Source of the DNA: a virus
Length of the DNA stretch: 47,679 nt
Virus record (IMG/VR): IMGVR_UViG_3300031886_000658
Location: 1-47,679 of that record
Strand: one strand, 5' to 3'
Part shown: positions 4,234 to 47,679 of the stretch, in pieces
Layout of the letters: the number at the start of each line of letters is the position of its first letter
How positions within the stretch are numbered: position 1 is the first letter of the stretch
The notes under the pieces: model-generated
Told to the model about the DNA's origin: nothing
The model's input: only the letters and a program-made list of their open reading frames with translations
Database searches by the model: none
Translations under genes and position numbers: made by a program

Positions 4234-4241
4234 TATAAATA
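4234..4241 (+). promoter_or_regulatory. Late promoter (TATAAATA), rightward
   Basis: An exact copy of the T4 late promoter consensus TATAAATA lies 31-38 bases before the first ATG of the (+) gene at 4272. In T4 this element is read by RNA polymerase carrying gp55, and a gp55 gene is present in this window. It sits nine bases from an opposing copy on the other strand. Confidence 0.7.
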
Positions 4242-4250
4242 CTGATACAA

Positions 4251-4258
4251 TATTTATG
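4251..4258 (-). promoter_or_regulatory. Late promoter (CATAAATA), leftward
   Basis: The (-) strand reads CATAAATA, one base from the T4 late consensus, about 44 bases before the GTG start of the nucleotide-sugar dehydrogenase. It would drive the leftward group of dehydrogenase, SGNH-type, DxD and radical SAM genes. It faces the rightward copy at 4234-4241, so the two predicted start sites fall in nearly the same place. Confidence 0.6.
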
Positions 4259-21778: not shown

Positions 21779-21786
21779 TATTTATT
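21779..21786 (-). promoter_or_regulatory. Late promoter (AATAAATA)
   Basis: The (-) strand reads AATAAATA, overlapping the stop codon of the 4910-aa gene and lying 19-26 bases before the ATG at 21760. The following leader ACACTTGTAGGA is nearly the same as the leader after the late promoter at 46005-46012, so the promoter and ribosome site seem to form a repeated block. Confidence 0.6.
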
Positions 21787-27700: not shown

Positions 27701-30700
27701 AATGGCAATTAAAGTTCCATCGTCTGAAACTGCAACAGCTGAACCAAATCCTATACCTGCTACCGGTGTTACAATTTGTTGGCTAAATTCATAGTGTCCG
27801 TTGTTTAATCTATAAACAAGTACTTTAGGATCACCACTAGTATATTCAGCTACAACAACTAAAATATTTCCATCTCTATTAGTTGTAAATGGACCAAAAT
27901 TTGCAAGAAGACTTTGATCAAGAATAGTTTCGTCGTCAACTGTTAACCCTAAATCATTAGGAATATATCCTATATAATCTATATGCGATGATAATTGTGT
28001 CCAAAGTGATGGACTCCAAACACCTGCCGGTAAATTAGTTTTACTTTGCCAGAAATATTCATCATATAAAACAATATCATTTTCATAGTATGCTTGAGCT
28101 ACATCAAATACACCTTTATAATCTTTATCTTTTCCAGTTGCATAATCGAATACTTCTCCAGTACTATCAGTACCATGATTAAACAAGTATACCCTACCAG
28201 GTGAACCAAATGACCCTGGATCGTGCGTACCAACATAAAGATAATGTAATAATCCATTTGTAGCAAACTCTATTTGGTCGCCAAATTCTGTACCTGTAGC
28301 CGTATGTTCAGAAATATATCCGTGGTTTAATGAATACTCTCCATTAGCAGTCTTATCATAAGTTAAAATGATACCACAGTCGTCTTTATCATTGACAACA
28401 CCTTCTGCGTGTGCAGGAATATTATATTGTTGTAACCAGTCTTTGTTTAGTGGTGTTGGATAATTAGGTATTCTAGCAATTCCACTAACTTCACTGCTAG
28501 AATAAAAATGTACTTCTAATTCATTTTGAAAACTCGGCGAAGTAACTGGTAACTGAGCTGAATCCGTGTTCTTAACAACCACCATCTTACCTGTAGCCGT
28601 ACTATCCATATCCGCATGATCTAATCTCCCAGATAAACGATTGACGCCAGGGCTAATAGCATCTTTTATACTAATAGTACTTGTTGCACTATTATTAAAT
28701 CCGAAACTAAATGTTCCAGCTCGACCAGTTACAAATACTCTAGCTGTTAATAATTGTTGTTGTATATACGTAACTGTAGCTTCAGCACCTGTAGTATTAT
28801 CAATAATAACTTGATTTTCTAAAGGAACATAAGGATCACCACTTAAATCAAAGTTTGTAAATGTTATATCAATATATCCTGACCATAGATCAAAAATTGT
28901 ATGAGTTGAATCATTGAGATATGTAAATGTTAAACCTAATGACGCAGGATCAAAAACTGAAATAGGATCAACCCCTCCTCTAATAGTATTAACCCACATT
29001 TTAAACTCATCATCTTTATCAGCTAAATCTGTAAAAGTTTTAGGTGCTCTTACAAACCAAAGTTCACTTAAATTCGGTAATCCAAGTTTATCATAATAAC
29101 TTAAATGTCCTAGTCTGCCGCCTCTTGTTGGATCTGTAATAAGACTTAATGCACGAACATCATCCATTGTATTACTAAACGGAACTGGTGATCTTGATTC
29201 ACTTGAAGTTATAAAATCTTGACCTATAATATTTGGTATTGCAATTTCTTGTGCTTCGTTTACAGTTGTAGTAAACGTAGGTATTCCGTCAATCCTCCAC
29301 CATCCGCCAAATACTTCTGGGTGTGTGCCTGGTTGAACTTTTTCAAATGTTCCACAACTTACTGCGTTTAAGAAAATTTCATCTGTAGCAAGAAATTCTC
29401 CACTAACATCTTTCATATAAATTATTGCTTGACTAACATTTTCAATTCGAATATATTGTACTTCACCAACGGCTGTAGCCGACGATAGTGAATCTCCAAC
29501 AGTTGGAATGCGTATTAAATTGTCAACATATAAAATAGCATCAATTTTTGCCGCAATAACTTTTTGACCTTCTATTGCCGCAACACCTGGACCTGTTGCA
29601 CCCCACGGTAAAATACCAGTTGGATAATTTTGTGAAAATTCTTGCCAGTTAATAATTACTTTATCATTTTCAGCTGATCCATTATATTGTTCAACTGGAG
29701 CTCTAATTAATATGTGATCTGTAGTAACATCTAATCCATAATCACCTCTTATAGCATAAACTATTTTTGGATATGAATTGCTTAAGGCATCATAATTTGC
29801 TTCGTGAATAAATGACGTTGAATAAAAACTAGGAAATAATAATGCACCAGTTGCCGCCGCTATATCAAATTGTGCTTCCCAGAAAGCTTCTAAATACCTA
29901 ACAATGTCACCAGTAACATAAGATGTTCCGCCATCAAAGTCACCTTTCCATTTAGTTCTTACATTACTAGCATGGGGAGCCCCAATAACTAAATGATTAC
30001 CATCATCAGTTAATGCAACAGCTTGACCAAACTTTGCTGGTGGATCTCCAACATCACCATACAATTCTGTTGGAGCATCGATTGTTTGTCTATGAGTATA
30101 ATCTACATTATCTGAAACTCTAGTAAACACATAAACTTTTTCGTATTCAGCGGCTGATACAATTAAAATTGTATTTCTTTGATCAGTCGCAATAACTTTA
30201 CCAAATAAATGTCCTTCACCAGTGTTAACATTAGGAATCTGTTGGAATGAACTATATGTTGGTTTATTTTCTAATACAACCCAACGTCCTTGATCATCAT
30301 TATCAATCCAAATTAATTCACCTACGTTTAAGTGACTATTAAGAACTCTAACATTTGCTTCTGCTACCGTGGCAACTCTAGCTGAAATAAATTTAGTAAC
30401 AAATCCATCAGCTATTGGTACATCTTCTGTTGTACCATTTGCATAACAAATAATATTTCCTAGAGAAACACTTTTAACTTTAAAGAATTTTTCTGCACCA
30501 GTAACATCAAGTACACCTATAATTTCATCTGCGTCATATACAGCTTGTTCATTAAGAGTTATTGTTGTTGTTCCGGCGTCATTATCTGAAGTTACTTGTA
30601 CAACTCTGTCTACTGTTCTTACATACTTGAAAACATCCCATGATGTTCTATATTGACCAACCCAAATATAATTACCAACACTTAAATCTGTAATAGAAGC

Positions 30701-33700
30701 ATTAAGAATGTCATCATATTTTGCAACTGTTAATTGAACATCTTCTTCATTAACAAATCCTGCTGTTCGCACATATTCAAACTCTTTTGTATGTGTTGGA
30801 AATGGCTTATGATTATAACCATTTGGTTTTAAATAAACTTCAAATGGTCGTATACGATAAATTAAATCTGTTTCTATTCCTGAAACAGTATCAACTAATT
30901 CGACTGGTTGAGGACTTAATTTAAATTTGCCTTCATCTAATTTAAATTCGATTTCATCAAATCCATCTGAAGACCCATATTGTCCTAACTTAACAGCCCA
31001 CTCTTCATAAAAATCAATACTATCTTTATCTGCATTACTTAAAGCATCAAACAGTTTTGTTAAACTATTTTGTGTACCTTTATCTTGAATAAATCCTTGA
31101 TAAAATTTATACTGACTAACATCGTCATTAATAATGTTTGAAAGATACTCTCTTTTTTGATATCCAATAAGATGTTGGGCTATTACTTGCTGTTCTGTAT
31201 CAAAATTATCTGTATCTAAATCATAATAATCTTTAAATTGTTTTGCTTTATAATCTAAGTTGGGTCTTAATACAGAAGTAGGTTTCTTACTTAACCGCTC
31301 CCATAAAGAAGCATCAAAAGACTCTGCTCCTTCGATTTTTTGTTTAGCAAGATAATAAAATTCTTTATATTTTACTGTATCACCAACAGCATATTTTTTA
31401 TATTCAGCCCATTCAGTACAAATTGCATTATCATAAACAAACCCTGGAATATTTAAACTTCCATTCCAATCATCTGTACGATAACCTATAACTTTAACTC
31501 GTTCTTGTCTATATCCTGGTTCTAAATCATATATTATATCATTAAAAACAGTATGGTTGTCTATTAAAACAACGTGTTCTTTTTGTATTAATGGTAACTT
31601 AACAGCATATACACCATCAGCACTATTTTTTGCTGTAATTTTAAATTCACCTTCAGCACCTCTATAAACATCAATAAATTCTTTTAATAATTTTGTCCCG
31701 TCAGCTTTTAAAAGTGTGTAGTCATAAAAACTATCAAAAATATTATCCGAAACATGAAGTTCTCTTTTAAATGATAAATGATTACCGGCTGGACTTAAAG
31801 TTATTACACTATTATCAGCCCAATTCTGTGTAGTCCAGAATAAAAATTCTTTAGCACTTAACTCCCAATTTTCAACTAAATTAATATCGGGATTAAAGAA
31901 ATTAAAATCAAACCCTTTAGATTTTAACCAATGTCCATAACCTAATAAGAAGTCAACAACACCTTGAATGGTTGTAAATAAAGTACCATACGAAATTTCT
32001 TTTATACTATTAATAAGAGGAGGTGTCTGATCAAACTGACGTCTAAAGAACGCATCACGTCCACCACTTATAGGTAATTCAGCTAATTTAACAAAGTTAG
32101 TAGCTTCAAAATCTACATCAGCATCATGTGATGTCTTAACAGTAAAATATTCATTATCAAATTCAACAATTTGTCCTTCAAGATACTTCTGACCGGCTTG
32201 CCATCTAACAAAACTTTCAGAAACGCCTCCAACATTTACTACTGGATCATCTGATAACTCACGAACCTTAAAATATTTAAAATATGGATTAGTAGAATCA
32301 TACCCTCTTATAACAAATCCAGCAGGTTTCTTTTCAATAATAACTCCGCTATAACTTACTAAATCAATAACTGAACTTGCATTTAAAAATACTTCATAAT
32401 TCTCATCAGGAACAAAAACATTTCCTTCATTAAATGGACTTCTACTATCTAATAATAGTTTAAATTTAGATTTCTGAGTAAACCCAGCAATTTTAAATCC
32501 TAATTGATTTTTAATTTGCTTTAACTCGGTTTTATAAGAAGTATAACTATCTACAGCCTGTGTATTAACAAAGTTAAAGATATAATTGATAAATCCAGCC
32601 GTAGATGATCTATCTACATCTAGATATGTATTTGGAAAAACTATATCTTTAAACCTAATTCTTTTATCAGTATTACTATAAACAATTTCATTTGCTAAAT
32701 TTCTAACAGTTCGCGATCTATCAAACCCTAATCCCATAATTTTAGCTGGTTGATTAAGTATCCAACTTACAATAAATGCAAAAGGATATTCACTACTTCT
32801 ACGCCAAGCGGTTTCAGTTGGTGCTTCGTCACCAAAAACAAAAGCATCATCAGTTAATGCAAGAACATAATTTTTAGCATAGTTACTATCTAACGGACTT
32901 AATAAATTACCTTCACCATCTACTGGAATATGTTTTGTAATATCTTTTCTTGCATACGCTGTAAGATATTTTAATGCTTTGCCAGGTTCTCTAACAATTC
33001 CATCTTCAACATCTTTCCATAAAATTTTATTTTCTCTAGTATATGGAGCTGGTCCATAAACTGTTTGCCACCATGCAGGCTCAATAGTATAACCTAATAT
33101 TTCCCAGGGATGAGTATGCGGACGATCAGTATCATATGCTTCTTTATAAATTGCTCTCCAGTATCCTGCTAATTGATTACCATTCGGAGATGTCATTTTA
33201 CTATAATTAAATGTGAAACTATTTGTTCGTTGATAAAAACTATGATCAGTATAATCTAAATTACCAACATTGTTTAACCAACCTAGGAAGTCAGTAATTA
33301 AAGTCTTATCTCTATTCCATTTACTAAATCCTGTATCTCTACTGTCACCACCAATAAATTCATGAATATCTATTAATGTTTTATCATACTCTACTTTTAT
33401 ATTATTAAAAATTCTTTTTTCTAATTCTAATAAAAGTTCATCTCTATAATCTCCATAACAAACAAAAATATTACCATCATGACCTTGAATAACTTCTGTT
33501 GGTGTTTGATAGGTATTATCAATATATTTCTTTGGTTCATATTTAGGATACAATCCTAATTTAGATGGCGTTTCAGGAATATAACTTCCGTCAGATAACG
33601 GATATTCATAAATTTCAATTATATCATCTACAGCCTTAGTCGCTGTAATTGTAACAAACCCTGGATGATCTGTTTCAAATATATAATCAACACCATGAAG

Positions 33701-36514
33701 TAATTGAACTTTGTTTTTATAAATGTAAACAGACTGTGCTGACAATGATGCTAAATTAAAATCAGTTGATAGTGCATAAAACTTTGTGTCAACATCATCT
33801 ACAGTATGCTTTCCTTTTAATGATGTTCCTGCACCAACCATGTCACTAAAATAAAATGGCATATCATAAGTTTTATTTTTATTAATCTGCTTCATTAAGC
33901 GATCAAAGTGCTCTCTTATTTCTCCATCAAAACCTAATCGTGTTGCTTCTTGAAGAAATATGCGTCTAAACTTTCCGTATTCTTTACTAGCAAATCGAAG
34001 TGCTTTAATAATATTAGAAGTTCTATCAGTAATATGATACAAGGCAAGATTTACTGGGCCACTATGTTGAATAAATTTTGTACCCCAAGGTGCTAAATCT
34101 CCTAAATCTCTTAAATTATTAGGACCAGGAAACGTACCTATAAAATTATCATTATATTCAGTAACAGTTTGTACATGGTCGGTAACTTCGCCTACAGTAA
34201 ATGTAAGAACGTTATCATTTAATGGATTTCTTTCTAAATTCCAAGGAATTTCATAATACCCATTTTCATTTTTGTCAGTTGCACTATGGGTTTTAATTAA
34301 AACAACATCATCTTTTTTTAAGTCTTTTACAAATGTAATATATGCTATACCATTAATTCTATTAATTACGAAATCTGTTAAGGCTTCTTGTCTCTTCCAG
34401 TTAACATAAACTCTAGTCCATAAATCATTTAGATCACCACTTCTATCATAAACATCAATAGCATAATCATTAAATTGAATATCAATTACATATTGTCTTA
34501 TAACAAGCTGACGACTATGTGCAACAGCTTTAACCCAACCAGACTCATTAGTATACGTATTAATAGCAGTATAAACTCGTAATAACGCTATATCAGTTTT
34601 TCCTGTTAATAATGCATTATCTTGTTGATATGTATATTTGTCAGCTAATAAATTAAAATCAAATAAAATGTCTCCTGTGTTTTCTAAAGCTCTATAGCTT
34701 AGAGAAAATCCTAATTCAGGATCATTAACTACTCCAGCACCAAGTTTATAACTGAAAACCTTATTTCCAACAAATGTTGATGATGGATAATAAGTTGTAT
34801 CTGAAAGAGCATATCCATCCTTATCATATAACTCAAATAATGGAGCCTGATTTAAAGCAATTTTATCTTGTCCTGCTTTCCACTCAGTACCATTATAAAA
34901 CCACATCTTACCTTTATAAGTGTCACCATTCCTAACTAATACTGTTTCATTTTCAATTGGACTTGTGTCTGTTTCTTCAACAAGACTAATTTGTCTTACA
35001 AGATTATGTGTAATAAAGTTTACTTTAAAAATTTTACCTGATACTCTACTGTCAGGATCAGCAGTAAACAATATACGCATATTGTCAACAATATCTATAC
35101 CATCAATATTATATCCTATTGCACCTTCAACATCTGAAAACACATCTTTAGTAAATGTATCAAGCAAATCAATATCATTTTTAGCACTAGTACCAAAGTT
35201 ATATAATTTTAATCCTGCTTCAAATTCTATAATAGGACGCTTTGCTCTAAAATTTTGATCTAGTTCTGGAGGCGTTCCTGTAAGTTCAGCTACTTGTTCA
35301 ATAACTTGCTTATGAAACCATCTATTATATCTTGACCAAGGGTTTCGACTTTTAGATGCTTTATTAACTACAAGATAATCTTTTTCACCTGCAAAACTAT
35401 TAGCATTACTATAAGGTAATCTATCAAAACCTACAGTATCAAAAGGTACAGGTTTGTCTGTTGCATACGTAGCCGGAATTTCTAAATCTTTTTCATTAAC
35501 TAAAGTAATTTCGCTTCCTACACCTTCAACATACCACTCGCCTTCAGCATATTTTACTGGAGTTACATCTCCTTGGAAATAAACTTTCATTCCATTTGAA
35601 AAAGCTACTCCGCCAGTACTTGTATAAGTTTTTTTACCTATAATCTCAGCGTCAACATCTATTTCTGTATTATCAATTGCATCTGCAATTTGTATTAGCC
35701 CACTTGCATTAATATCATTGCCATTTACATAAAACAATGTATCAGGTGCATTATCAGGGATTGTCCAAGTAATAGTTCCAACATCAACTGTTTGAGTACT
35801 ATCATCTAATCCTGTAGTAAACAATAAACTAGGATCTAATGAACGTGCAGTTCTAAATGTTAGTGGCATTCCTACTGCATCAATTTCAAAAATGTATGTT
35901 TGACCTCTAAATAATTTTAAAGTTGGATTAGATGTTAATCCGTCAGGTGTGAAAATATAACTGTTATTATCTATATTATCTTTTTTAGTTACTTTGTATG
36001 TGCTTATAACATCTTTGGCGTTACCAGCAATCCCTAGTCCTATTGGACCTCCTGGAAGCCAATAATATTCTCTAAAGTTTACAAACTTGTCCCAATCAAT
36101 ATGAGGGCTCCAAGCATAATATTCAGTACTATTAAGTTTACTATGATTAGTTACATTGCCACCGAATGCTTTTATTTGATTAATGTAGTCATTATAGTCT
36201 TTATAAAATTTTACATTTTCTAAATTATCTTTAACTACTACGGCGGGCTCTAATTGATAATTTTCTCTATCTGGACTATGTTCTTTAATATAAACGTCAT
36301 TGGCTTTATATGCTCTAGCTGTTTCACGGCCAAAGTAGCCGTTTAACTTTTCAGCAACACCTGGTTGTACTAATTGATCTAGAGTTGCGCCTAAAAACTT
36401 TTTATTATGTCCAGTTCTAAAGTATCTAGGAAGTAACTCAGCACTATGTCTTCGTGGTGGCTTCTTGCTATCAGCTGGTAACGGATATTCATTTTGTTCA
36501 TTTGTAAAAGGCAT
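21782..36514 (-). CDS. Giant baseplate/virion structural protein (4910 aa)
   Basis: This is an uninterrupted 4910-codon gene in the place where T4 has gp7, gp8 and gp10. The N-terminus (MPFTNEQNEYPLPADSKK) is not a signal peptide. Residues about 190-275 resemble a cupredoxin-like beta domain (LFRGQTYIFEI ... DAPDTLFYVNG) without metal ligands. Residues about 2140-3100 contain FG-GAP-type propeller repeats at 2162, 2744, 2923, 2980 and 3060 (e.g. FGSAVAVSDDG...IGAP). Gly-rich GxGY repeats occur near 3490-3550 and 3850-3915. From about 4100 to the end there are several copies of a GDGSTxxF...VNG beta-sandwich domain. The reading frame shares one base with the gp6 stop. It is probably a wedge protein fused to cell-surface binding modules. 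The name and role are inferred from position. Confidence 0.85.
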   Translation of the reverse strand: MPFTNEQNEYPLPADSKKPPRRHSAELLPRYFRTGHNKKFLGATLDQLVQPGVAEKLNGYFGRETARAYKANDVYIKEHSPDRENYQLEPAVVVKDNLENVKFYKDYNDYINQIKAFGGNVTNHSKLNSTEYYAWSPHIDWDKFVNFREYYWLPGGPIGLGIAGNAKDVISTYKVTKKDNIDNNSYIFTPDGLTSNPTLKLFRGQTYIFEIDAVGMPLTFRTARSLDPSLLFTTGLDDSTQTVDVGTITWTIPDNAPDTLFYVNGNDINASGLIQIADAIDNTEIDVDAEIIGKKTYTSTGGVAFSNGMKVYFQGDVTPVKYAEGEWYVEGVGSEITLVNEKDLEIPATYATDKPVPFDTVGFDRLPYSNANSFAGEKDYLVVNKASKSRNPWSRYNRWFHKQVIEQVAELTGTPPELDQNFRAKRPIIEFEAGLKLYNFGTSAKNDIDLLDTFTKDVFSDVEGAIGYNIDGIDIVDNMRILFTADPDSRVSGKIFKVNFITHNLVRQISLVEETDTSPIENETVLVRNGDTYKGKMWFYNGTEWKAGQDKIALNQAPLFELYDKDGYALSDTTYYPSSTFVGNKVFSYKLGAGVVNDPELGFSLSYRALENTGDILFDFNLLADKYTYQQDNALLTGKTDIALLRVYTAINTYTNESGWVKAVAHSRQLVIRQYVIDIQFNDYAIDVYDRSGDLNDLWTRVYVNWKRQEALTDFVINRINGIAYITFVKDLKKDDVVLIKTHSATDKNENGYYEIPWNLERNPLNDNVLTFTVGEVTDHVQTVTEYNDNFIGTFPGPNNLRDLGDLAPWGTKFIQHSGPVNLALYHITDRTSNIIKALRFASKEYGKFRRIFLQEATRLGFDGEIREHFDRLMKQINKNKTYDMPFYFSDMVGAGTSLKGKHTVDDVDTKFYALSTDFNLASLSAQSVYIYKNKVQLLHGVDYIFETDHPGFVTITATKAVDDIIEIYEYPLSDGSYIPETPSKLGLYPKYEPKKYIDNTYQTPTEVIQGHDGNIFVCYGDYRDELLLELEKRIFNNIKVEYDKTLIDIHEFIGGDSRDTGFSKWNRDKTLITDFLGWLNNVGNLDYTDHSFYQRTNSFTFNYSKMTSPNGNQLAGYWRAIYKEAYDTDRPHTHPWEILGYTIEPAWWQTVYGPAPYTRENKILWKDVEDGIVREPGKALKYLTAYARKDITKHIPVDGEGNLLSPLDSNYAKNYVLALTDDAFVFGDEAPTETAWRRSSEYPFAFIVSWILNQPAKIMGLGFDRSRTVRNLANEIVYSNTDKRIRFKDIVFPNTYLDVDRSSTAGFINYIFNFVNTQAVDSYTSYKTELKQIKNQLGFKIAGFTQKSKFKLLLDSRSPFNEGNVFVPDENYEVFLNASSVIDLVSYSGVIIEKKPAGFVIRGYDSTNPYFKYFKVRELSDDPVVNVGGVSESFVRWQAGQKYLEGQIVEFDNEYFTVKTSHDADVDFEATNFVKLAELPISGGRDAFFRRQFDQTPPLINSIKEISYGTLFTTIQGVVDFLLGYGHWLKSKGFDFNFFNPDINLVENWELSAKEFLFWTTQNWADNSVITLSPAGNHLSFKRELHVSDNIFDSFYDYTLLKADGTKLLKEFIDVYRGAEGEFKITAKNSADGVYAVKLPLIQKEHVVLIDNHTVFNDIIYDLEPGYRQERVKVIGYRTDDWNGSLNIPGFVYDNAICTEWAEYKKYAVGDTVKYKEFYYLAKQKIEGAESFDASLWERLSKKPTSVLRPNLDYKAKQFKDYYDLDTDNFDTEQQVIAQHLIGYQKREYLSNIINDDVSQYKFYQGFIQDKGTQNSLTKLFDALSNADKDSIDFYEEWAVKLGQYGSSDGFDEIEFKLDEGKFKLSPQPVELVDTVSGIETDLIYRIRPFEVYLKPNGYNHKPFPTHTKEFEYVRTAGFVNEEDVQLTVAKYDDILNASITDLSVGNYIWVGQYRTSWDVFKYVRTVDRVVQVTSDNDAGTTTITLNEQAVYDADEIIGVLDVTGAEKFFKVKSVSLGNIICYANGTTEDVPIADGFVTKFISARVATVAEANVRVLNSHLNVGELIWIDNDDQGRWVVLENKPTYSSFQQIPNVNTGEGHLFGKVIATDQRNTILIVSAAEYEKVYVFTRVSDNVDYTHRQTIDAPTELYGDVGDPPAKFGQAVALTDDGNHLVIGAPHASNVRTKWKGDFDGGTSYVTGDIVRYLEAFWEAQFDIAAATGALLFPSFYSTSFIHEANYDALSNSYPKIVYAIRGDYGLDVTTDHILIRAPVEQYNGSAENDKVIINWQEFSQNYPTGILPWGATGPGVAAIEGQKVIAAKIDAILYVDNLIRIPTVGDSLSSATAVGEVQYIRIENVSQAIIYMKDVSGEFLATDEIFLNAVSCGTFEKVQPGTHPEVFGGWWRIDGIPTFTTTVNEAQEIAIPNIIGQDFITSSESRSPVPFSNTMDDVRALSLITDPTRGGRLGHLSYYDKLGLPNLSELWFVRAPKTFTDLADKDDEFKMWVNTIRGGVDPISVFDPASLGLTFTYLNDSTHTIFDLWSGYIDITFTNFDLSGDPYVPLENQVIIDNTTGAEATVTYIQQQLLTARVFVTGRAGTFSFGFNNSATSTISIKDAISPGVNRLSGRLDHADMDSTATGKMVVVKNTDSAQLPVTSPSFQNELEVHFYSSSEVSGIARIPNYPTPLNKDWLQQYNIPAHAEGVVNDKDDCGIILTYDKTANGEYSLNHGYISEHTATGTEFGDQIEFATNGLLHYLYVGTHDPGSFGSPGRVYLFNHGTDSTGEVFDYATGKDKDYKGVFDVAQAYYENDIVLYDEYFWQSKTNLPAGVWSPSLWTQLSSHIDYIGYIPNDLGLTVDDETILDQSLLANFGPFTTNRDGNILVVVAEYTSGDPKVLVYRLNNGHYEFSQQIVTPVAGIGFGSAVAVSDDGTLIAIGAPLQDEVETNNGAVYVYIQEAGSFIWSQTLYSPETDVAERFGATLDFDKNNLAVSSRGGDLIASTTFDANITIVPTSWDNNLTQFKVVNEDSGQVLIFQRFNNTLLYSEKFVFNNPVTRRFGDYLLFTDNHVYVAMPELTITPTDNFQGTIIDFRRERNVLSWQTLRSPLDQVDLKQFRGVFIYDTETNKLGSQIDYIDPIQGKISGIAEEEISFKTLYDPAVYTIGTAPSNVDTSNYWSKNYVGRLWWDLSTVKYHNPYQGSIIYQTANWNKLFKGSSIDVYEWVETELLPSQWLEQADTEEGLSKGISGVPRFDDNTLVSTRVYNKAAQSFSNKFYYWVKNRKFIPSEKEWRKTSAYDVAQLIEDPKAQGYKFAALLADNRFALYNTDALFNDVNSAVNFRYWTIENPNNIHNEYQVLSEGLDTSRPKADVERKWFDSLIGWDTNYRAVPDTDLSPKQKYGSLNSPRQSWFVNRLEAVKEVIERVNRVLKQHIIVDEYDLSKLKEVDVIPTLNSGKFDQSVDTYAEIVYVGTANIKQAVLTPIWLNGRLERVEIADGGRGYKVPPTYEFVNIGNGTAAELILTIDTLGKVNSVTVKHAGRNYPNDTGLIVRRYSTLVKADENITGKWSIHAYNTANTLWERTDSQAYNVPDFWGYIDWYAIDYNQFTNVDYLIDESYLLTSLDDDIGDIVKIKTVGTGGWLLLKKINSVVDADYTTNYETVGRQNGTIKFASSLYNYPTWNIGYDSLSYDTSDYDNQPVHEFRLILEALRDDIFIDDLAVEYNKLFIASLRYVFSEQKFVDWAFKTSFIKAKHNIGELAEKVTFQNDNLPSYEAFVGEAKPYKTKIREYLTSYTKFDNTNSITTDFDLPPAYKTEAGKIIPSSLKIKDDVLYGVDPGLVNYPNKHWKDNLGYEVVMIQIKDGGTGFLEVPVITISGGGGTGAKAQAYIGVGGAITWIKLTNVGSGYLSAPTVTVNGTQSEGSKPAVVSAKLGNGKIRSAHIISRFDRVSGAFLITTLEETESFTGNASKQKVDLKWPMDVRPSQIYITINDVELLTSEYTFKNIAYTDKSYTRYRGQIFFTEPPANLASIVVKYSKAIDMLQAQDRINLFYKPTDGMLGNDISQLMEGIDYGGVEVRSFDFGGGAGWFSEPWFTSTWDTFDNTFEDEVFQLDGSTNIFNLAQPLADGVLYNVYKNGVRVDDPEYDGSTVPGNPSAVMQTITGDGVTQTITLNEELIPTVDGDVIIIRKATSDGSFIPDPDAYDTALQGGDLAYQTAKGLLSEEIVVDGDGFITPLTSKGPEELIPGQVMDTVDFRVYDRTADGSCIISSHNYFGDGSISKFPINQLPASQKDLFVKVNGIILDTTEYTVNYQTKQVELVTVPQLNELVHISTMSNNGEKILDLDKFIGDGSTSQFVTPVVYKLGLTYTLTVDGETVTTDLSETDATYEVPGRAVFKLGTIPDPGAIIQYVIYDSTSQVFSQVTTDEFVGNAVTTKFTLSQTPFTSEPESHNIIVKLGNEILNAGYNQQFTVVPQREYQLREWQLATATFGANNVLVYLNGVAIELNTKWRWDTFNGSVVLFDDVGVNGDTLEVFIVDSGDYQLGYFDVGTSLFVKTPDDVYLDTPPPFGVKLTIYKFSKHDIRKIKRETFDVVARNAVTVGTDGYTEFHQLTNGIVRLREEAIDAEYVWVTLNKVLLTPSIDYYVTDDRKHIKIVSDIDPDDKIEVIHFTNPVIVPKFGFRIFKDMLNRTHYKRLGDSNKYTLAEDLHWYDSRIYVTNYDNLPLPNKDKGIPGIIFINGERIEYYLKEGGAIRQLRRGTLGTGVAELHKAGSDLFDQSATQTVPYKDEILTQVFEADGSTNAVTVDFIPKTVNEFEIFVAGKRLRKVSISSFDKTVDLDSPEADITLPAEFSVDGTTSTVILLNTPAINSKIIVVRKLGRTWTDSGVPLHRQENNIGRFLRSAEATLPK

Positions 36515-39994: not shown

Positions 39995-40002
39995 TATTTA
40001 TT
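39995..40002 (-). promoter_or_regulatory. Late promoter (AATAAATA)
   Basis: The (-) strand reads AATAAATA in the 50-base gap between gp25 and gp6, 23-30 bases before the gp6 ATG. This is the only sizeable gap between gp25 and the fibre region, and it would drive gp6 and the giant gene. Confidence 0.6.
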
Positions 40003-40022
40003 TAAACTAATTAACCACTTAC

Positions 40023-40472
40023 TTAACTACTAAATGAAGATGCATCTTCATCGAATGTTAAACGCATTTGTTCAGAGATATTATACGGTAGATATGTTAA
40101 TGTACAATCAATTATAATTCCTGATTCGTACTGATCAATAAGGATACTGTCTACATTAACCCTAGGATCTGCATTAACAATCTCTGTAACATTCTCAGCT
40201 ATAAGTGTTTTTAACCCTTCTGTTAGTGGTTCATAAATTGCTTCCCAAATAATAGTTCCAAATGTTGGATTTTCCAATTTTTCACCCTGTCGTATATGAA
40301 AATGATTTATAATATCTTGTTTAATTAATTCAATATCATAAAGCACTTTACTTGAGTTAGCTGGATTAACTGAACTTAAACCACGATACGCTCTACTTTT
40401 AACTATTGACGGATCTTTAGCGGCTGTAGTTACTTTTATTTGTTTGTATAATTCTCTATCAGATTTGCTCAT
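40023..40472 (-). CDS. gp25: Baseplate wedge protein gp25-like
   Basis: The 149-residue protein shows the gp25/GpW fold signature: DIELIKQDIINHFHIRQGEKLENPTFGTIIWEAIYEPL at about 46-83, followed by a helix with ENVTEIVNADPRV and a C-terminal strand pair. gp25 is a lysozyme-fold-like sheath-initiator/wedge component that contacts the sheath and gp6 in contractile tails. The length is near T4 gp25 (132). It lies between the gp5-like spike and gp6-like genes, as in T4-like phages. The ribosome site is the AGG just before the ATG, in the six-base gap after gp5. Confidence 0.92.
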   Translation of the reverse strand: MSKSDRELYKQIKVTTAAKDPSIVKSRAYRGLSSVNPANSSKVLYDIELIKQDIINHFHIRQGEKLENPTFGTIIWEAIYEPLTEGLKTLIAENVTEIVNADPRVNVDSILIDQYESGIIIDCTLTYLPYNISEQMRLTFDEDASSFSS

Positions 40473-40478
40473 ATTAAC

Positions 40479-42065
40479 CTACTTTGATGCTTCTTTCTTA
40501 AACGGATCTGCTGTTGGTACAAATTCAAGGTCATTCTTGACTGTTATCACGTTATCTCTGTCTGTGACTCCAACTTTAAATGCTAATGGATTTAAATTTT
40601 CATGATCCTTCCAAGGTTCATGTTGTGGTGCTCTTTGTGATAATATTCCTAACGCATTATTTGTTGGAATACCAGGTAGAATATGTGTATTAAGAGCTGT
40701 AACAAGTTGAGCGGCTGATGCCGCTGGACCATTCATATGAATTTGCGGAGCAGTTTCTAAATGCTGACCGCCTGACTTAATATGAGATGTTCCACCTGAT
40801 GTAATTTTAGTTTCACCATTTGTTTTATACTCAGTATTACCTATTGTAGTAACCCAAAGATTTTGACCTACTAACATTTTAGTATCTTTTTGTGATTCTA
40901 ATTGTATTCTACCTTTAATAATTTTAGGCTCTTCTACATCAAGATAAGTACCACTTGCTTTCATGGCTATATTAGCTCCAGCTTCTATGGTAATATTTCT
41001 ATCTGCTGTTAAATTAAAATCAGCTTCAGTATGCATACTCATACTGTCTTTTGCATAAATGTCTATTTTTCCATCTGATGTTAATTCAACCCATGCTGAT
41101 CCTTTTGAATTAGCAATATATATTAAATCTTCTGTATTATGTAATAAAATTTGATGACCAGTTCTAGTCCGTATCCTAACTAATTCATTATGTGGTAATT
41201 CACGTAGTCCATCTAATTCATTCTTAGCAACATTAGAATATTCTGGTGGTCCTTCACTTGCTGATGTTTTTCGTAAAAGTTTATCATTACCATCATCCAT
41301 TACAAATGATGTTCCACCTAATCTGCTTCTAAATACATTAGCTGGTGCATCAGAAACTCCTACAAGTCCTTTCGGTGCTCCAGGAGTTTTATCAACTGGT
41401 CCTGGTGTACTAATACCAAACACTGAACTAGGAAGTTCACGTCTAGCACTAGCCGTTGTTATTCCCCTAAATTCATCTATAAATTCTTTTGTAACTAATC
41501 CTTGTTCTAATAATGTATTAAGAAGTCTTAATTGAAAAGGTTTTAAAAATTTTGTTGGGTCTTGTGCAATACCCGATTCATTTTGTTTATTATATTCACT
41601 TGCAGGAATTTTTTTACCTTTAAAGTCTGCAGGTGTTCCATCAGTTGTTAACGACGTTGAAGCATTGCCAGGAACAGCAAAATTTTGATACTGGTCCCAA
41701 ACACAACCTAACCAATAACATTGATTAGGATTACTCTCAGCAAAAATTACTAATACATTTGTTCCTGCATCAGGCGGAACCATCCACATACCATAACTTT
41801 GTTGGCTTTGTCTATAATCATCATTTTTTCCTGTTGACCAAACTGGCGTTTGTCCAGCAAAAGGTGATAGATACCTTGCTGTAAATAATTGTCCATCTTT
41901 TTGTGGTTCATTTCCTGATGTTGTTGATTTTAATAACTCAACTTGAAGATTACCCATAAAAGAAGGATCTTGATGACTAACAACTTTAGCTAGATATGGT
42001 CCTGGGTCTTTAGGTGCTGGCCCGTCGGCTTGAATAAGATTTAAAAATTGTTCTGTTAATGACAT
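40479..42065 (-). CDS. gp5: Baseplate hub spike gp5-like, no lysozyme domain
   Basis: The 528-residue protein begins with an OB-fold-like domain (about 15-130: GPYLAKVVSHQDPSFMGNLQVELL, ARYLSPFAG, SYGMWMVPPDAGTNVLVIFAE). The C-terminal third is a VgrG/gp5-type triple-stranded beta-helix with regular 8-residue-like repeats (MHTEADFNLTADRNITIEAG). gp5 is the membrane-piercing needle under the tube. In T4 a lysozyme domain sits between these parts. Here residues about 150-290 are a linker with no recognisable lysozyme motif. The ATG shares a base with the stop of the 890-aa gene. Confidence 0.85.
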   Translation of the reverse strand: MSLTEQFLNLIQADGPAPKDPGPYLAKVVSHQDPSFMGNLQVELLKSTTSGNEPQKDGQLFTARYLSPFAGQTPVWSTGKNDDYRQSQQSYGMWMVPPDAGTNVLVIFAESNPNQCYWLGCVWDQYQNFAVPGNASTSLTTDGTPADFKGKKIPASEYNKQNESGIAQDPTKFLKPFQLRLLNTLLEQGLVTKEFIDEFRGITTASARRELPSSVFGISTPGPVDKTPGAPKGLVGVSDAPANVFRSRLGGTSFVMDDGNDKLLRKTSASEGPPEYSNVAKNELDGLRELPHNELVRIRTRTGHQILLHNTEDLIYIANSKGSAWVELTSDGKIDIYAKDSMSMHTEADFNLTADRNITIEAGANIAMKASGTYLDVEEPKIIKGRIQLESQKDTKMLVGQNLWVTTIGNTEYKTNGETKITSGGTSHIKSGGQHLETAPQIHMNGPAASAAQLVTALNTHILPGIPTNNALGILSQRAPQHEPWKDHENLNPLAFKVGVTDRDNVITVKNDLEFVPTADPFKKEASK

Positions 42066-44737
42066 TAGAAAGGTCCTGTTAATCCTGGATGGACAAAACT
42101 TCCAGACGATCCATTACCAATTTTATCATACTCAGTCTTTGGTTGAGTTGGTAACGGACTAAATGCGTTAGCTTCACCTTGTTGGTTGTTTAATCTAATT
42201 AATTTTAATTCCTGTTGAAACTTTCCTTGATTAAAATTTGACGTAACCTCTCTTACCCAATAAAGTCCGCTAAAGTGTTCTAACTTTGTTCCGTCTCCTA
42301 ATGTTGGAAATTGCATTGTTCCATCTTGATTATAATCAAACGGTGTTCTAAAATTAAGATCAATATAAACTTTTTTATCTTGATATCTCATTTGCCCTCG
42401 ATCATCTATTGATTTTTTAAAAGTCCCTGGACTATTATAATTTCCTAGTCCACTATCAGAAATAAAATAAGGATCACCCCAAATTGTTAACGAGGCGTGC
42501 ATCAAATCTACTGGGTGATTAACTGTAGCATCATGAAATTGTCTTGCAAGTTCATCAGCCTGCCCTGATGCTATTGCTCGCATTCCACCTGAATAATTTA
42601 CTAAAGCCTTAACACCTTGTTTTTTCCAAATCTTTTGTGCAGGAATAGATAATTGAGGTGGCGCAGTTTGTTGCGTATTTGTAATGTGTGCTAACTCGGC
42701 TTGAGTTGCATGACTTCCTGGATTATTGAGATCTTTTGTATTTTCACCTTTGTCTGGTGTTAGTCGAGTTAAAAATCTATATTCAAATTTAATATCAAAA
42801 TTTATAACATCTTTGTTTTTGCCTGTATAAACATAATTGTATTGTTTACAAGTTGTATCTTTTATCTTTACGACTCCTTTTGAAATCTCAGTAGGGGTTG
42901 TCCACGTTGATGCAGGCTCTTTATATGGGACAACTCTAAAAACATATAGCTTTGGAAATCTACCTTTCTTTAATTCCATTTCATATACAGGTATATTAAA
43001 AACTTGGGTTTCAATCTTAAACCATTCTCTATTTCCTTCAGCATCTGGTTCTCTTTGTGCTAAAGATCTTCCGAAGTCACTAATAAGAACTATTTCTTCA
43101 ATAATTTTATTAACATGAGTTTTTTCTTTAAAAGTAATATCTCTACTCTTTGTAGAAATCTTGGCAAGAGATGTTAGCCAAATACCTTTCTCTGCATTGT
43201 ATACATATTTTGCAGGTGGTAACGGTGTTGCGCCTGCTTGTAATGCCGAAAACATTATTGTTGAATTACCAATCGAATTAATATTTTCTTTTTTAGTCAT
43301 AAAGTCTTTTAATGATTCACTAGTGGCACTTCTTACTACTGAGATTCCTAAAATCTTTTTAGCCCATGTATCAAAATCAAATGTATTCAAGTTTATAGCT
43401 TCAGCAAGATCTTCTTTTCTACTACTACTTTCAGGATGAAGATTATACAATCGTCTTGCTTCTGAAAGCGACCTAGCAACACCTTCTGTAGTAGCATTTT
43501 GTTCATTAGGATTAGAAGTTGTTACTTCACTTGCTCGTTCATTTGGAAAAGTAATCATATATTCATCAGCAAATGAAACTGTATCTTTCGATTCACGTTT
43601 TAGCAACGTGGTATTAAGTTGAGTTGTTAAACTATGTGATCCTGATTGTAAAAGTTCATGTACAGATCCTCCTGAAAGTGTAATATCTGTCGGTATTTGT
43701 TGAACTTCAGCTGTTAATGCCTGATCATTAAAAGCAATACCTCTCATATTATATTCTGAACCACTTTGCGTAACTGTAAAATCTGCATTAGTTAACTGAA
43801 TAGGTAAGTATCTTTTTGATTGTCCTTCTACTTGCGATAGTCTACTTACCTTACCATCATCGTCATAGCCTACCCAATCTAGTATTAAAAGAAATGGAGC
43901 ACCAATGTAATTCCCGTGTCCAGCTTTAATACTTGCAACTTGTAATGTTTCTAAAAATTGTCCCATACTATAAGGTTCTATAACTTTAAAAGAAAACTTA
44001 TTATATGATGCAGTTCGTGTTTGTGGGTTAGGTGCAACAACAGAATTAATTTCTAGGTCTTCAATAAAATATTCTATTCTTCCTCCAGCGTCTACTCGTT
44101 CAAATGCAGTTAAGGCTTTTCTCTCTTTAAGTGTCCGTGTTCCACCTCCAGACCTAAGTATCATTACTAGTGGCTCACCATCTTTAATATAAGTATTATC
44201 AGGGTCAGCTAATTCTTCATTTGACAATACACCCAGTGAAATTTGATAATTAGCACTAATAAATTTTTCTAATGGATTTTTAAGATATCTAGCTGGACCA
44301 AGTCCAGATTCTTCGTCTGGGACGATGTAAGCCTCATCGACGTGCGGATTGCCTGATGTTTCTTTTGGATCAATATCTAATAAGTCTCTAGTTTTAGTTA
44401 AATCTTGTACTTGGTCTTGAATGGTATTTACAATATTGTTACTTCCTAGTGTGGCGTGAATGTCTTTAGCTGTAGCTATAGAGGCTACTTTAACCGCACT
44501 AACTAATTTTTTAACTTCACCAGAATTTGCAAAATCACTAGCAAATGTAGTAGCTGTATTTTTAAGGTTTTCAAGTTCACTACCAATTGCGCCACCTTCG
44601 ATTGAACCTTGTAAATCGGCCGCGGCATTTTCTACTGCAATTTTACTTTCTTGAAAACTATCAAGTAATTGCGTTTTGCGTTCGGCTGATAAATTAACCT
44701 TTGTAAAATCATTTAAAAAGTCACCTAAATGTAACAT
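42065..44737 (-). CDS. Baseplate hub-like structural protein (890 aa)
   Basis: The first 130 residues are helical, alanine-rich and coiled-coil prone. The middle contains SANYQISLGVLSNEELADP and a series of beta segments, and near residue 770 there is DLMHASLTIWGDPYFI, a segment resembling the hub-domain strand of gp27/gpD-like proteins. The position between gp53 and gp5 is where marine T4-like phages carry a large hub-type structural protein. T4 gp27 itself is 391 residues, so this is more than twice the size. It probably forms the central hub that holds the spike. Identity with gp27 is inferred and not certain. Confidence 0.68.
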   Translation of the reverse strand: MLHLGDFLNDFTKVNLSAERKTQLLDSFQESKIAVENAAADLQGSIEGGAIGSELENLKNTATTFASDFANSGEVKKLVSAVKVASIATAKDIHATLGSNNIVNTIQDQVQDLTKTRDLLDIDPKETSGNPHVDEAYIVPDEESGLGPARYLKNPLEKFISANYQISLGVLSNEELADPDNTYIKDGEPLVMILRSGGGTRTLKERKALTAFERVDAGGRIEYFIEDLEINSVVAPNPQTRTASYNKFSFKVIEPYSMGQFLETLQVASIKAGHGNYIGAPFLLILDWVGYDDDGKVSRLSQVEGQSKRYLPIQLTNADFTVTQSGSEYNMRGIAFNDQALTAEVQQIPTDITLSGGSVHELLQSGSHSLTTQLNTTLLKRESKDTVSFADEYMITFPNERASEVTTSNPNEQNATTEGVARSLSEARRLYNLHPESSSRKEDLAEAINLNTFDFDTWAKKILGISVVRSATSESLKDFMTKKENINSIGNSTIMFSALQAGATPLPPAKYVYNAEKGIWLTSLAKISTKSRDITFKEKTHVNKIIEEIVLISDFGRSLAQREPDAEGNREWFKIETQVFNIPVYEMELKKGRFPKLYVFRVVPYKEPASTWTTPTEISKGVVKIKDTTCKQYNYVYTGKNKDVINFDIKFEYRFLTRLTPDKGENTKDLNNPGSHATQAELAHITNTQQTAPPQLSIPAQKIWKKQGVKALVNYSGGMRAIASGQADELARQFHDATVNHPVDLMHASLTIWGDPYFISDSGLGNYNSPGTFKKSIDDRGQMRYQDKKVYIDLNFRTPFDYNQDGTMQFPTLGDGTKLEHFSGLYWVREVTSNFNQGKFQQELKLIRLNNQQGEANAFSPLPTQPKTEYDKIGNGSSGSFVHPGLTGPF

Positions 44738-44741
44738 ATTA

Positions 44742-45041
44742 TTATCCTAGTACACTTTTTACATCTGCTGGCTTTGGTAGAAATATTTCTACACCAACTT
44801 CAAAATCGTAAATGGGGTCTTCAATAACATCCATATTGCGTTGAGCAAAGATCCACCAAAATTTTGACGAGCCATATATATCGTGTGCAAGAAGATCGGG
44901 TCTATGATTATATTGAGGTTCAATTACATATGGCGGATCATCAGGACTTGCTGGAACGGCTCTAATTCTAAAATGACTAAGACGTTCCCCATCTGCTGAA
45001 TACTTTGTAGTATGCCAAGGACTTGATGCTTGATATGCCAT
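44742..45041 (-). CDS. gp53: Baseplate wedge protein gp53-like (short, 99 aa)
   Basis: The 99-residue protein contains PPYVIEPQYNHRPDLLAHDIYGSSKFWWIFAQRNMDVIEDPIYDF, which fits the gp53 core pattern (YRPDLLAYDxYG, WW-x-FA-x-RN, DPI-DF). gp53 clamps wedges together in the T4 baseplate. T4 gp53 is 196 residues, so this is a compact form with only the core. It overlaps the neighbouring tail-tube cap gene by one base and precedes the hub-like gene by four bases, with a ribosome site inside its own end. Confidence 0.85.
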   Translation of the reverse strand: MAYQASSPWHTTKYSADGERLSHFRIRAVPASPDDPPYVIEPQYNHRPDLLAHDIYGSSKFWWIFAQRNMDVIEDPIYDFEVGVEIFLPKPADVKSVLG

Positions 45042-45985
45042 TAAATAAATCCTCCGCCTTTCTTACTAACATATTCACCTCTAACAAATCTCTCAAGACT
45101 GAATGCTTCAAGAGCCCGTCTGCTGTAAAGCGGTTGACAAGTAACTGAAAATAAACTTTGTGCAGGTGCCCAGCCATGCCTAGCATCTTTTTGAGAACCT
45201 TGTTGATAAAATTGACTAGAAGCATACTCCGGCGTATTATATGGTTTAGCTGTGTCAGTTACTGGTAAAGTTTTTTTATCAGCTTGTTTTGCCGTTGTTC
45301 CAGTAACAACTTCTGTTGCAATATAATCAACAGAATCAGGTAAATCAATTGTAAATGTTGTTATAACTACAGGAACCCTATTAAACACATAATCTCCATA
45401 TCCACTTAGATAAACAATCGGTGGTGGAGCACCTTGATTTTCTCCTTCGCCACCATAAAACATTTTTGTAATACTTCTTAAATAATGAAGTGCCGCTACC
45501 CAATATTGTGCCTCATGGCCATTTTGTACAAAAAAGTCTCCAGTAATAACTAACTGATCCACTTGTGAATTTGCATATACTTGGAACGGATAATTACTAT
45601 GTGTAGGCTGTAAGGCATTGTAACCTGCACTATGTGACATTAATATCGCTGGCGTAAAAGGAAAAACTAAACCGCCTGTCGTATGAAGAGGATATAGTAG
45701 ACGTGATTCGCTGGCAAAAGGCTCTATGGTAGGCAGGCTTAATTTAACTCGCCAATCTTGTTCTACGCCTGTTGGAAATTTCGCCGCGGTATCTGTTTTT
45801 CGTACATCCAATAAACTATCAAATGGAATATTTCGTTTACGGACTTCTTCCATTACCTTTTTAGGGTCTTGGACTACTTCTAAAACCTTTTGTGCTTTTT
45901 TAACTCCCGAATTTGCAGATTTTAAAAGTGAACCTGCTCGATCTGCCGCAAAAGCTACTGCTTGGTCAATAAATGATGATGCCAT
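45041..45985 (-). CDS. gp48: Tail-tube cap/baseplate protein gp48-like (or gp54)
   Basis: The 314-residue protein has an Ala/Lys-rich helical N-terminus (to about 60), then a WRVKLSLP strand and a segment with VITGDFFVQNGHEAQYWVAALHYLRSITKMFYG and PPIVYLSGYGDYVFNRVPVVITTFTIDLPDSVDYI. This layout matches the homologous T4 pair gp48/gp54, which cap the hub and start tail tube polymerisation. I cannot tell the two apart with confidence; gp48 is chosen from gene order beside gp53. It is the first gene of the leftward late module, with AGGAG nine bases before the ATG and a CTAAATA element upstream. Confidence 0.75.
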   Translation of the reverse strand: MASSFIDQAVAFAADRAGSLLKSANSGVKKAQKVLEVVQDPKKVMEEVRKRNIPFDSLLDVRKTDTAAKFPTGVEQDWRVKLSLPTIEPFASESRLLYPLHTTGGLVFPFTPAILMSHSAGYNALQPTHSNYPFQVYANSQVDQLVITGDFFVQNGHEAQYWVAALHYLRSITKMFYGGEGENQGAPPPIVYLSGYGDYVFNRVPVVITTFTIDLPDSVDYIATEVVTGTTAKQADKKTLPVTDTAKPYNTPEYASSQFYQQGSQKDARHGWAPAQSLFSVTCQPLYSRRALEAFSLERFVRGEYVSKKGGGFI

Positions 45986-46004
45986 TTGGTTATACTCCTA
46001 CAAG

Positions 46005-46012
46005 TATTTAGT
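46005..46012 (-). promoter_or_regulatory. Late-promoter-like element (ACTAAATA)
   Basis: The (-) strand reads ACTAAATA 20-27 bases before the ATG at 45985 and is followed by the leader ACTTGTAGGAG, shared with the late promoter at 21779-21786. It probably starts the whole virion transcript. Its first base is the first base of the opposing sigma70 -35 box. Confidence 0.5.
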
Positions 46013-46040
46013 TGACTTTATTAAGTACATAGTTTATAAT
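46012..46040 (+). promoter_or_regulatory. Sigma70-type promoter for gp55
   Basis: TTGACT at 46012-46017 and TATAAT at 46035-46040 are separated by exactly 17 bases, a near-consensus host sigma70 promoter. Transcription would start near 46047, after which a GGAG ribosome site and the ATG at 46064 follow. This is a classic phage early/middle promoter and contrasts with the late elements elsewhere in the window. Confidence 0.8.
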
Positions 46041-46063
46041 AAGCTACTACCATGGAGAATTCA

Positions 46064-46927
46064 ATGAGGAAAGTAAACTATTTAAACAACAGAGATCTTT
46101 TAGCAGAGATCCACAAATCAAAAAACACATTTAGCAGTTTTACAGATGAGGGGTACGATCAATTTGATGTAATTTTACCGAGCATTGATAAGATTAACAT
46201 ACGTACAACTGCTGAGGCAAAACGAAACAAGGCTAAAAGACTTGGTCAAAAAGACTATGAACGACGTAAAGCTGACGGCGAAAAAATAAAACAATCAGAA
46301 TGTGAGATAGACTATAAAAAAATAAACAAAACAGACGTTATTTTTAGAATAATGATGTTTGATCATATACCTGACGATAAAGGCCGTAAAAAGAAACCAA
46401 AGACTATTGCTGATACTAAAGAAAAGCTAAACTTCCCACCATTTCAACATTATAAGTTTAACGAAGAAGGCCAACTACAAGTTGTTGGCAAAAGCCATTG
46501 GGTTGGGGGTATGGAAAATGGCTATTATGATAAAGGCTGTGGTCAAGCAACTAATAAACTAGCTATGATGTGGATGAAACTATGTGAACGATACGCAACT
46601 AGAGGCAATGTTAGAGGATATACGTATAATGATGAAATGAAGGGACAAGCAATTTTACAACTTGCACAAATAGGCTTACAATTTGACGAATCTAAATCAA
46701 ATAACCCATTTGCATATTATACTGCCGCAGTTACAAACTCATTTGTTAGAATTATTAACATTGAAAAACGTAATCAAAATATTAGAGACGATATTTTAGA
46801 AATGAATCATATGAACCCATCCTTTACTCGACAAAATCAAGGAGCGTGGGAACGAGAAATGAAGGAACATAATAAAAACTGGAAACCGCCGGAGAAAAAG
46901 GTAAAAGCAACGAGTGACAAAAAATAA
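46064..46927 (+). CDS. gp55: Late sigma factor gp55-like
   Basis: The 287-residue protein carries a sigma region 2-like segment from about 160 to 245: KLAMMWMKLCERYATRGNV, DEMKGQAILQLAQIGLQFDESKS, NPFAYYTAAVTNSFVRIINIEK and QNIRDDIL. This is the gp55 signature. gp55 directs host RNA polymerase to TATAAATA promoters. T4 gp55 is 185 residues, so about 100-150 residues are extra, mostly N-terminal, including NNRDLLAEIHKSK and a Lys/Arg-rich region. I chose ATG 46064 because GGAG lies six bases before it and the predicted transcription start would leave almost no leader for the in-frame ATG at 46052. The divergent position opposite the virion genes fits its regulatory role. Confidence 0.9.
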   Translation: MRKVNYLNNRDLLAEIHKSKNTFSSFTDEGYDQFDVILPSIDKINIRTTAEAKRNKAKRLGQKDYERRKADGEKIKQSECEIDYKKINKTDVIFRIMMFDHIPDDKGRKKKPKTIADTKEKLNFPPFQHYKFNEEGQLQVVGKSHWVGGMENGYYDKGCGQATNKLAMMWMKLCERYATRGNVRGYTYNDEMKGQAILQLAQIGLQFDESKSNNPFAYYTAAVTNSFVRIINIEKRNQNIRDDILEMNHMNPSFTRQNQGAWEREMKEHNKNWKPPEKKVKATSDKK

Positions 46928-46928
46928 A

Positions 46929-46944
46929 ATATAGTATACTATAT
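46929..46944. other. 16-bp perfect palindrome between gp55 and gp47
   Basis: The sequence ATATAGTATACTATAT reads the same on both strands and sits two bases after the gp55 stop, just upstream of the gp47 ribosome site. It has no GC stem or T run, so it is not a standard terminator. It could be an operator or have arisen by chance in AT-rich DNA. Confidence 0.4.
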
Positions 46945-46961
46945 GTTAAGAGGATATAAAA

Positions 46962-47679
46962 TTGTTTAAAAAGGCCGCCGTCTTTACGGATATACACTTT
47001 GGATTAAAGTCAAACAGCAAAGTACACAATGATGATTGTGAAGAATTTATAGATTGGTATATTAACCAAGCTAAAGAACATAATTGTGAAACCGGTATCT
47101 TTATGGGTGACTGGCATCACAATAGAAATAGCTTAAACATTACTACCATGGATGCTACTATCCGAAGTTTAGAAAAACTTGGGAAAGCATTTAACCAATT
47201 CTTTTTCTTTCCTGGTAACCACGACTTATACTATAAAGATAAACGTGATATTCATTCCATAGAGTTTGGTAAACACATTCCTGGCATTACTATTGTTAAT
47301 AAAATTACAACAAAAGGTGACACTACTTTAGTACCTTGGCTTGTAGGTGACGAATGGAAACAGATTTCAAAGATTAAAAGCAAATATATATTCGGTCATT
47401 TTGAACTTCCAACATTTTATATGAACGCTATGGTGCAAATGCCTAATACTGGTGAGCTACAACCTGATCATTTTAAACATCAAGAGTATGTATTCTCTGG
47501 TCACTTCCATAAAAGACAAGTTAAAGGGTGTATCAATTATATAGGTAATGCTTTACCTCATAACTATGCTGATGCTTGGGACGATGAACGAGGTATGATG
47601 ATATTAGAGCACGGCGGCGCTCCTGAATATCTTAACTGGTGGAATTGTCCCAAGTATCGCACAGTTAAACTATCAAGGT
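46962..47679 (+). CDS. gp47: Recombination endonuclease subunit gp47-like (SbcD/Mre11 family), partial
   Basis: This is the first 239 residues of a gene that runs off the right edge. Metallophosphoesterase motifs are visible in order: FTDIHFG (D-x-H), GDWHHNR, PGNHD, GHFELP and SGHFHK (G-x-H-x). gp47 pairs with gp46 (Rad50-like ATPase) to process DNA ends for recombination-dependent replication. The start is a TTG at 46962 with AAGAGGA seven bases upstream. No in-frame ATG precedes it, since the ATG at 46943 hits a stop after eight codons. It follows gp55 by 34 bases and is probably co-transcribed from the promoter at 46012. Confidence 0.92.
   Translation, partial: MFKKAAVFTDIHFGLKSNSKVHNDDCEEFIDWYINQAKEHNCETGIFMGDWHHNRNSLNITTMDATIRSLEKLGKAFNQFFFFPGNHDLYYKDKRDIHSIEFGKHIPGITIVNKITTKGDTTLVPWLVGDEWKQISKIKSKYIFGHFELPTFYMNAMVQMPNTGELQPDHFKHQEYVFSGHFHKRQVKGCINYIGNALPHNYADAWDDERGMMILEHGGAPEYLNWWNCPKYRTVKLSR

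Follow-up and report, generated by a model that had tools for sequence, protein, structure and literature searches.

The stretch of DNA analysed here, called the window throughout, is a 47,679-base virus record with a GC content of 32.8%. Two sets of genes diverge near one of its ends: a string of virion genes lies on the - strand, and the genes for a gp55-type late sigma factor and a gp47/SbcD-like nuclease lie on the + strand. The features of the locus are as follows.

40023..40472, - strand: gene of 149 aa, putative late operon; weak GPW_gp25 match
40479-42065, - strand: gene of 528 aa, putative late operon; Phage_base_V
42065-44737, - strand: gene of 890 aa, putative late operon
44742-45041, - strand: baseplate wedge gene, putative late operon
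40023..45041, - strand: remainder of the putative late operon after its first virion gene; the next late boxes are at 39995-40004
45041..45985, - strand: structural gene of the virion that opens the operon; ATG at 45985; PHROG 12050, E 1.8e-47
45986..45999, - strand: predicted leader of the late transcript, 14 nt, opening with AGGAG (45999-45995); placed by the T4 rule
46005..46012, - strand: T4-type late promoter box ACTAAATA, assigned by position, avoidance elsewhere, retention in 77/78 loci and the Aeh1 form of the consensus
46012..46017, + strand: -35 element TTGACT of the gp55 promoter
46018..46034, + strand: 17-bp spacer of the gp55 promoter, unusually conserved
46035..46040, + strand: -10 element TATAAT of the gp55 promoter; RNA start predicted near 46047
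46064..46927, + strand: gp55-type late sigma factor; PHROG 12791 E 2e-71, PHROG 234 E 9.3e-23
46962..47679, + strand: gene for a gp47/SbcD-like nuclease, following gp55 and truncated where the window ends; PHROG 100 E 7.6e-56

The gp55 protein belongs to the late sigma family by its sequence matches to PHROG 12791 and 234; a Pfam search with it gave no match. Alignment with relatives places its start at 46064 (MRKVNYLNN) and not at the first ATG, at 46052, and a GGAG lies at 46054-46057. Within the virion gene cluster there is also a single reading frame of 4910 codons (21782-36514).

The gp55 promoter, TTGACT-17-TATAAT (46012-46040, +), and the box ACTAAATA (46012-46005, -) have base 46012 in common; read on the + strand, the box is TATTTAGT (46005-46012). 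A preliminary description of this DNA had placed the promoter directly against an opposed late element, and the shared base confirms that placement. With 11 of 12 consensus bases and a 17-bp spacer, the gp55 promoter has the sequence of a host-type (sigma70) promoter. It is one of two 11/12 sites in a scan of positions 40000-47679, which returned 34 promoter-like sites against 32.6 expected and hence no overall enrichment. On the opposite strand, 19 nt containing the AGGAG separate the late box from the ATG of the first virion gene (45985, -), and the late RNA would start near 45999, since the T4 rule puts the box at -13 to -6.

Neither half of this arrangement is rare by composition. TTGAC-N17-19-TATAAT occurs once in the window against 0.31 expected (at least once in 26 of 100 shuffles), and TATTTA-N0-5-TTGAC occurs once against 0.72 expected (58 of 100 shuffles). 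Taken in the window alone, the pair is not beyond chance and proves little.

Identity of the late promoter box

The hexamer TAAATA is found 18-31 nt upstream of 7 of the 31 gene starts in the window, 10-45 nt being the range tested. Random positions gave a mean of 0.46 gene starts with TAAATA upstream, and none of 2000 trials reached 7. Elsewhere in the window the hexamer is avoided (46 occurrences against 127.8 expected); its ratio of found to expected, 0.36, is the lowest among the 15 orderings of its letters, and the ratio in related loci is 0.50 (387 kb). This avoidance apparently keeps stray late promoters out. A T4-type late promoter is recognised by a box close upstream of late genes that is TATAAATA-like or, as here, ACTAAATA. 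The latter is a known form of the late box, because the late consensus of Aeh1 has a/gC at -13/-12 followed by TAAATA (PMC2988020). In the relative CBB, ATAAATA is predicted before structural genes (PMC5259590).

At 4236-4256 two further late boxes stand face to face with 9 nt between them, serving the divergent genes at 4272-5570 (+) and 3035-4219 (-, UDP-glucose dehydrogenase-like). With the boxes facing at this distance, the 5' ends of both transcripts should overlap.

We also looked for the box at promoters other than that of gp55. TATTTA was present within 20 nt of none of the 19 other distinct TTGAC..TATAAT promoters on the same contigs of 30 fetched loci, and at none of the 14 gp47-side promoters (a promoter was found there in 14 of the 48 representative loci described below). 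The late box is therefore specific to the gp55 site and is not a part of early promoters. These counts bear on another reading of TATTTAG, as an UP-like upstream element of the early promoter and not a late promoter. The AT-richness of TATTTAG and its constant distance from the -35 element are what such an element would show, and the RpoD-like promoters of CBB have been described with an UP-like element before them (PMC5259590). That reading nevertheless appears highly improbable: besides the missing TATTTA at the 19 and 14 other promoters, the exact hexamer marks other late gene starts, nearly all representatives have a Shine-Dalgarno sequence and a start codon after the box on the - strand, and in sister loci the box sits 36 bp from the -35. 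The two promoter identities given in the preliminary description are supported, that of the box by its position and avoidance and that of the early promoter by its 11/12 consensus bases.

Conservation of the promoter pair among relatives

A search for similar gp55 proteins matched at least 600 stretches, and the best 80 of these were taken as related loci. Three of them (L066, L068 and L073) were left out for upstream sequence that was too short, and the count comprises the window and 77 others, 78 loci in all. Measured to the nearest TATTTA box, the gap between TATTTA and TTGAC among these gp55-selected loci (from the best of at least 600) is 1 bp in 68, 0 in nine and another value in one, L031. 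Box and -35 element touch, with 0 or 1 bp between them, in 77 of 78 loci chosen from the best of at least 600 by gp55 similarity alone. Loci added from a pattern scan were selected by motif, so the figures free of selection bias are those for the 78 loci; with the scan loci included (n=92) the gap is 1 in 80, 0 in 10 and another value in two. Among 48 representatives sharing less than 90% gp55 identity, the corresponding figures are 40, six and two. TTGAC is present in 48/48 representatives, but the search pattern demanded it (all 92 loci met the pattern). As read from these relatives, conservation excludes chance as the source of the pair.

A scan of the collection that allowed gaps of 0-30 returned at least 120 stretches, and 80 loci were read. 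Among the matches listed, the gap is 0-1 in 14 of 14 gp55-adjacent cases versus 6 of 71 others, five of the listed non-gp55 matches being at gap 1; at least one scan locus is a duplicate (L186 is the same contig as the earlier L053).

In 46/46 representatives a divergent ORF lies beyond the late box, at a median of 20 nt. The distance from late box to start is mostly 16-31 nt, as taken from ORFs, with four of 46 values (0, 0, 1 and 5) probably reflecting spurious starts that have no Shine-Dalgarno; at the same loci the distance from the -10 element to the gp55 start is 5-44 nt. Leader lengths vary and the gap between the boxes does not, which means that insertions and deletions are frequent around the pair but missing within it. 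Mean pairwise identity among the 17 representatives below 80% gp55 identity is 33% for the virion-side flank, 71% for the late box, 65% for the spacer and 34% for the leader.

The spacer, with a consensus of about WTTAASTRCGTAKWT ahead of TATAAT, is strongly kept across the clade. Compared at the same loci, spacer identity is 67% for the gp55 promoter versus 37% for gp47-side promoters. By this measure the gp55-promoter spacer is conserved beyond that of an ordinary promoter, which suggests a further regulator and makes the spacer a possible regulator site. A palindromic operator for a dimer was considered and rejected: AACTACGTAGTT forms a perfect dyad in some relatives, yet the inner pairs fail overall, the six of them matching in 59% over 48 representatives with no covariation. 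A search for a regulon sharing the spacer motif, on 19 contigs with at most 2 mismatches, gave numbers like those of the reversed control except for the gp55 promoter itself.

In a tree of 61 rows the window's clade consists of 28 rows with 100/100 support, all of them touching; for the tree L171 was labelled by its upstream promoter, two rows outside the clade (Atu_ph07 and SCTP-2) were labelled 'abutting' by hand, and an 85% filter removed L031. The locus L171 has two tandem TTGAC-17-TATAAT promoters before gp55, and the late box still touches the upstream promoter, at gap 1. In L031, a close relative, the touching arrangement has been lost. This locus carries CATAAATA on the gp55-sense strand together with TTGACT-17-TATAGT, as if a separate late promoter had been acquired for its gp55.

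The wider group shares the gene arrangement: PA5oct, 121Q, GAP32 and RaK2 all have gp55-gp47-gp46 in this order and a virion operon diverging from it. Among 48 loci found with the PA5oct gp55, the box lies exactly 36 bp from the -35 in 28, at 8 to 72 bp in 15 others, and five are without a gap value. The 19 loci found with the GAP32 gp55 use a different -35, and the gap is 5 in 11, 6 in four, 4 in one and 3 in one, with none in two; these non-TTGAC forms were picked after the sequences had been viewed, and the gaps of 3-6 in these enterobacterial relatives are descriptive only. Sister clades keep other distances, so exact contact is unnecessary in the wider group. The PA5oct-like environmental loci L249-L277 show a conserved stretch between box and -35, with TCAnGG, TAAAC, TTTTAT and GAAA words. 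A nucleotidyltransferase gene separates gp55 from the virion genes in Atu_ph07 and Phosso. Two genomes on long tree branches look like partial cases: Atu_ph07, which has TATTTAGTTGACA but lacks a good -10 at 17 bp, and SCTP-2, with AATTTATTGACA and a weak -10.

Another possibility is a neutral, ancient and compact pair, in which each promoter persists for its own function and their spacing is a matter of inheritance. The pair is indeed old, divergent gp55 and virion genes being found also in PA5oct, 121Q, GAP32 and RaK2; the distances are clade-specific, and phage intergenic regions are short. We consider this explanation possible though doubtful, as room for change exists: leader length differs by tens of bases among loci whose boxes remain together, and an insertion should be neutral, yet there is none above 1 bp in 46 of 48 representatives. 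The other two are L171, which keeps the pair in its upstream promoter copy, and L031, which has lost it.

Probable mutual exclusion and its proposed regulatory consequences

An early (sigma70) polymerase complex is expected to cover about -55 to +20, and a late complex about -40 to +20. T4 late complexes form without a -35 element, and activation extends the basal complex upstream by 13 bp (PMC2988020). From these limits the early complex is predicted to span 45992-46066, and the late complex 45980 to 46039, or to 46052 with the clamp. The two footprints would overlap by roughly 48-61 bp, which makes joint occupancy unlikely, and probably only one of the two promoters is usable at a time. This mutual exclusion, which we infer from the T4 and sigma70 footprints, agrees with the earlier proposal in so far as that proposal has one polymerase exclude the other. 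The overlap supports exclusion, not its direction.

The same proposal held that host polymerase on the gp55 promoter could bar the late polymerase from the virion promoter up to the point at which host-type initiation falls off. Overlap and conservation fit this equally, and gp55-polymerase alone binds promoters weakly and opens them slowly (PMC2988020), so that a strong sigma70 promoter could outcompete it. Yet gp55 supply already gates every late promoter, and none of the other six late promoters in the window overlaps a TTGAC..TATAAT promoter. With only one of seven touching such a promoter, the overlap cannot set the timing of virion genes as a class, and we regard a timing switch of this kind as unlikely. 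In terms of sequence, the evidence would fit equally well with late polymerase covering the gp55 -35 as with early polymerase blocking late. Feedback on gp55, late over early, is ranked slightly above early over late because late promoters need gp55 first and the other six lack such a partner.

With moderate confidence, we propose that the segment is a conserved bidirectional promoter at which two holoenzymes exclude each other and the late complex turns down early transcription of gp55. On the + side, a strong host-type -35/-10 promoter would make gp55; on the - side, a gp55-dependent late box would start the baseplate/virion operon. Early in infection the segment would be usable by host-sigma polymerase alone, and gp55 would be made. 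The sigma factor, with the replication machinery as in T4, would then arm polymerase, and late complexes would start the virion operon. Positioned on the - side, these complexes would cover the -35 of the gp55 promoter, and early transcription of gp55 would be turned down. The proposal builds on the elements, conservation, spacing and late-box status documented above and on gene functions assigned by homology; the net effect, whether hand-over or feedback, is what we infer.

Several points weigh against the proposal. Exclusion alone needs no exact touching, and sister gaps are 3-6 or mostly 36 bp. The related loci are non-independent events, and the close relative L031 no longer has the pair. 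The conserved spacer suggests a regulator outside the model. Use of sigma70 is assumed from the consensus, and the gp55 promoter could be a middle promoter, since that of CBB belongs to a separate, non-TTGACA class (PMC5259590). The pair is real and conserved, and it is probably regulatory; a timing switch is one of several possible outcomes.

Known systems offer partial parallels. The A2c/A2b-A3 region of phi29 likewise combines host-type early promoters with a late promoter on the complementary strand in one regulatory segment, an early gene product turns early transcription off and late transcription on, and p4 sites overlap early -35 elements (PMC3100819). In phi29, however, the agent is a DNA-binding regulator (p4 with p6); in the window the early product is a sigma factor, and occlusion would be by the late polymerase, the conserved spacer being the one hint of a regulator that binds between the promoters. 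Overlapping divergent promoters of unequal strength also act as a switch in pLS20 (Pr/Pc), although that system concerns plasmid conjugation and relies on a repressor and DNA looping instead of a sigma factor (PMC4207663). The T4 gp55/gp33/gp45 system shares with the window a sigma factor of the gp55 family and an 8-bp late box without a -35 element (PMC2988020). The gp55 of the window differs from the T4 protein: it is about 287 aa in length, and its N-terminal part is long. We know of no T4 case in which a late box is joined to the gp55 promoter.

Promoter classes have been described for vB_PcaM_CBB and GAP32 as well. Those predicted for CBB comprise late promoters with ATAAATA and a TGAAACG/-10 class to which Porf_244, the promoter of its gp55 gene, belongs (PMC5259590). 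By our own reading of the sequence, a CBB late box lies 5 bp from the Porf_244 -35, which, unlike that of the window, is not TTGAC. The main-text section on CBB promoters does not mention that two promoters adjoin (PMC5259590). Literature searches, covering listings and the starts of abstracts with most subscription journals outside their coverage, found no paper on the promoter pair.

The 36-bp cassette of late box, -35, spacer and -10 is kept across the window's clade of the jumbo T4-like group, and a looser form is found in enterobacterial members. We tentatively suggest that the sigma factor may shut its own early promoter by guiding polymerase to the late promoter joined to the -35, the cassette acting as a self-limiting, one-way early-to-late switch tuned by a regulator that reads the spacer. 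For a late sigma that is more competitive, dosage and timing relative to replication would be critical (PMC2988020). How T4-like phages control the amount and timing of late sigma is not well described. The signature TATTTA-N0-1-TTGAC-N18-TATAAT can serve to find gp55 loci of the group in uncultivated viruses, and a conserved early/late promoter pair at gp55 itself offers a clear place to test late sigma control.
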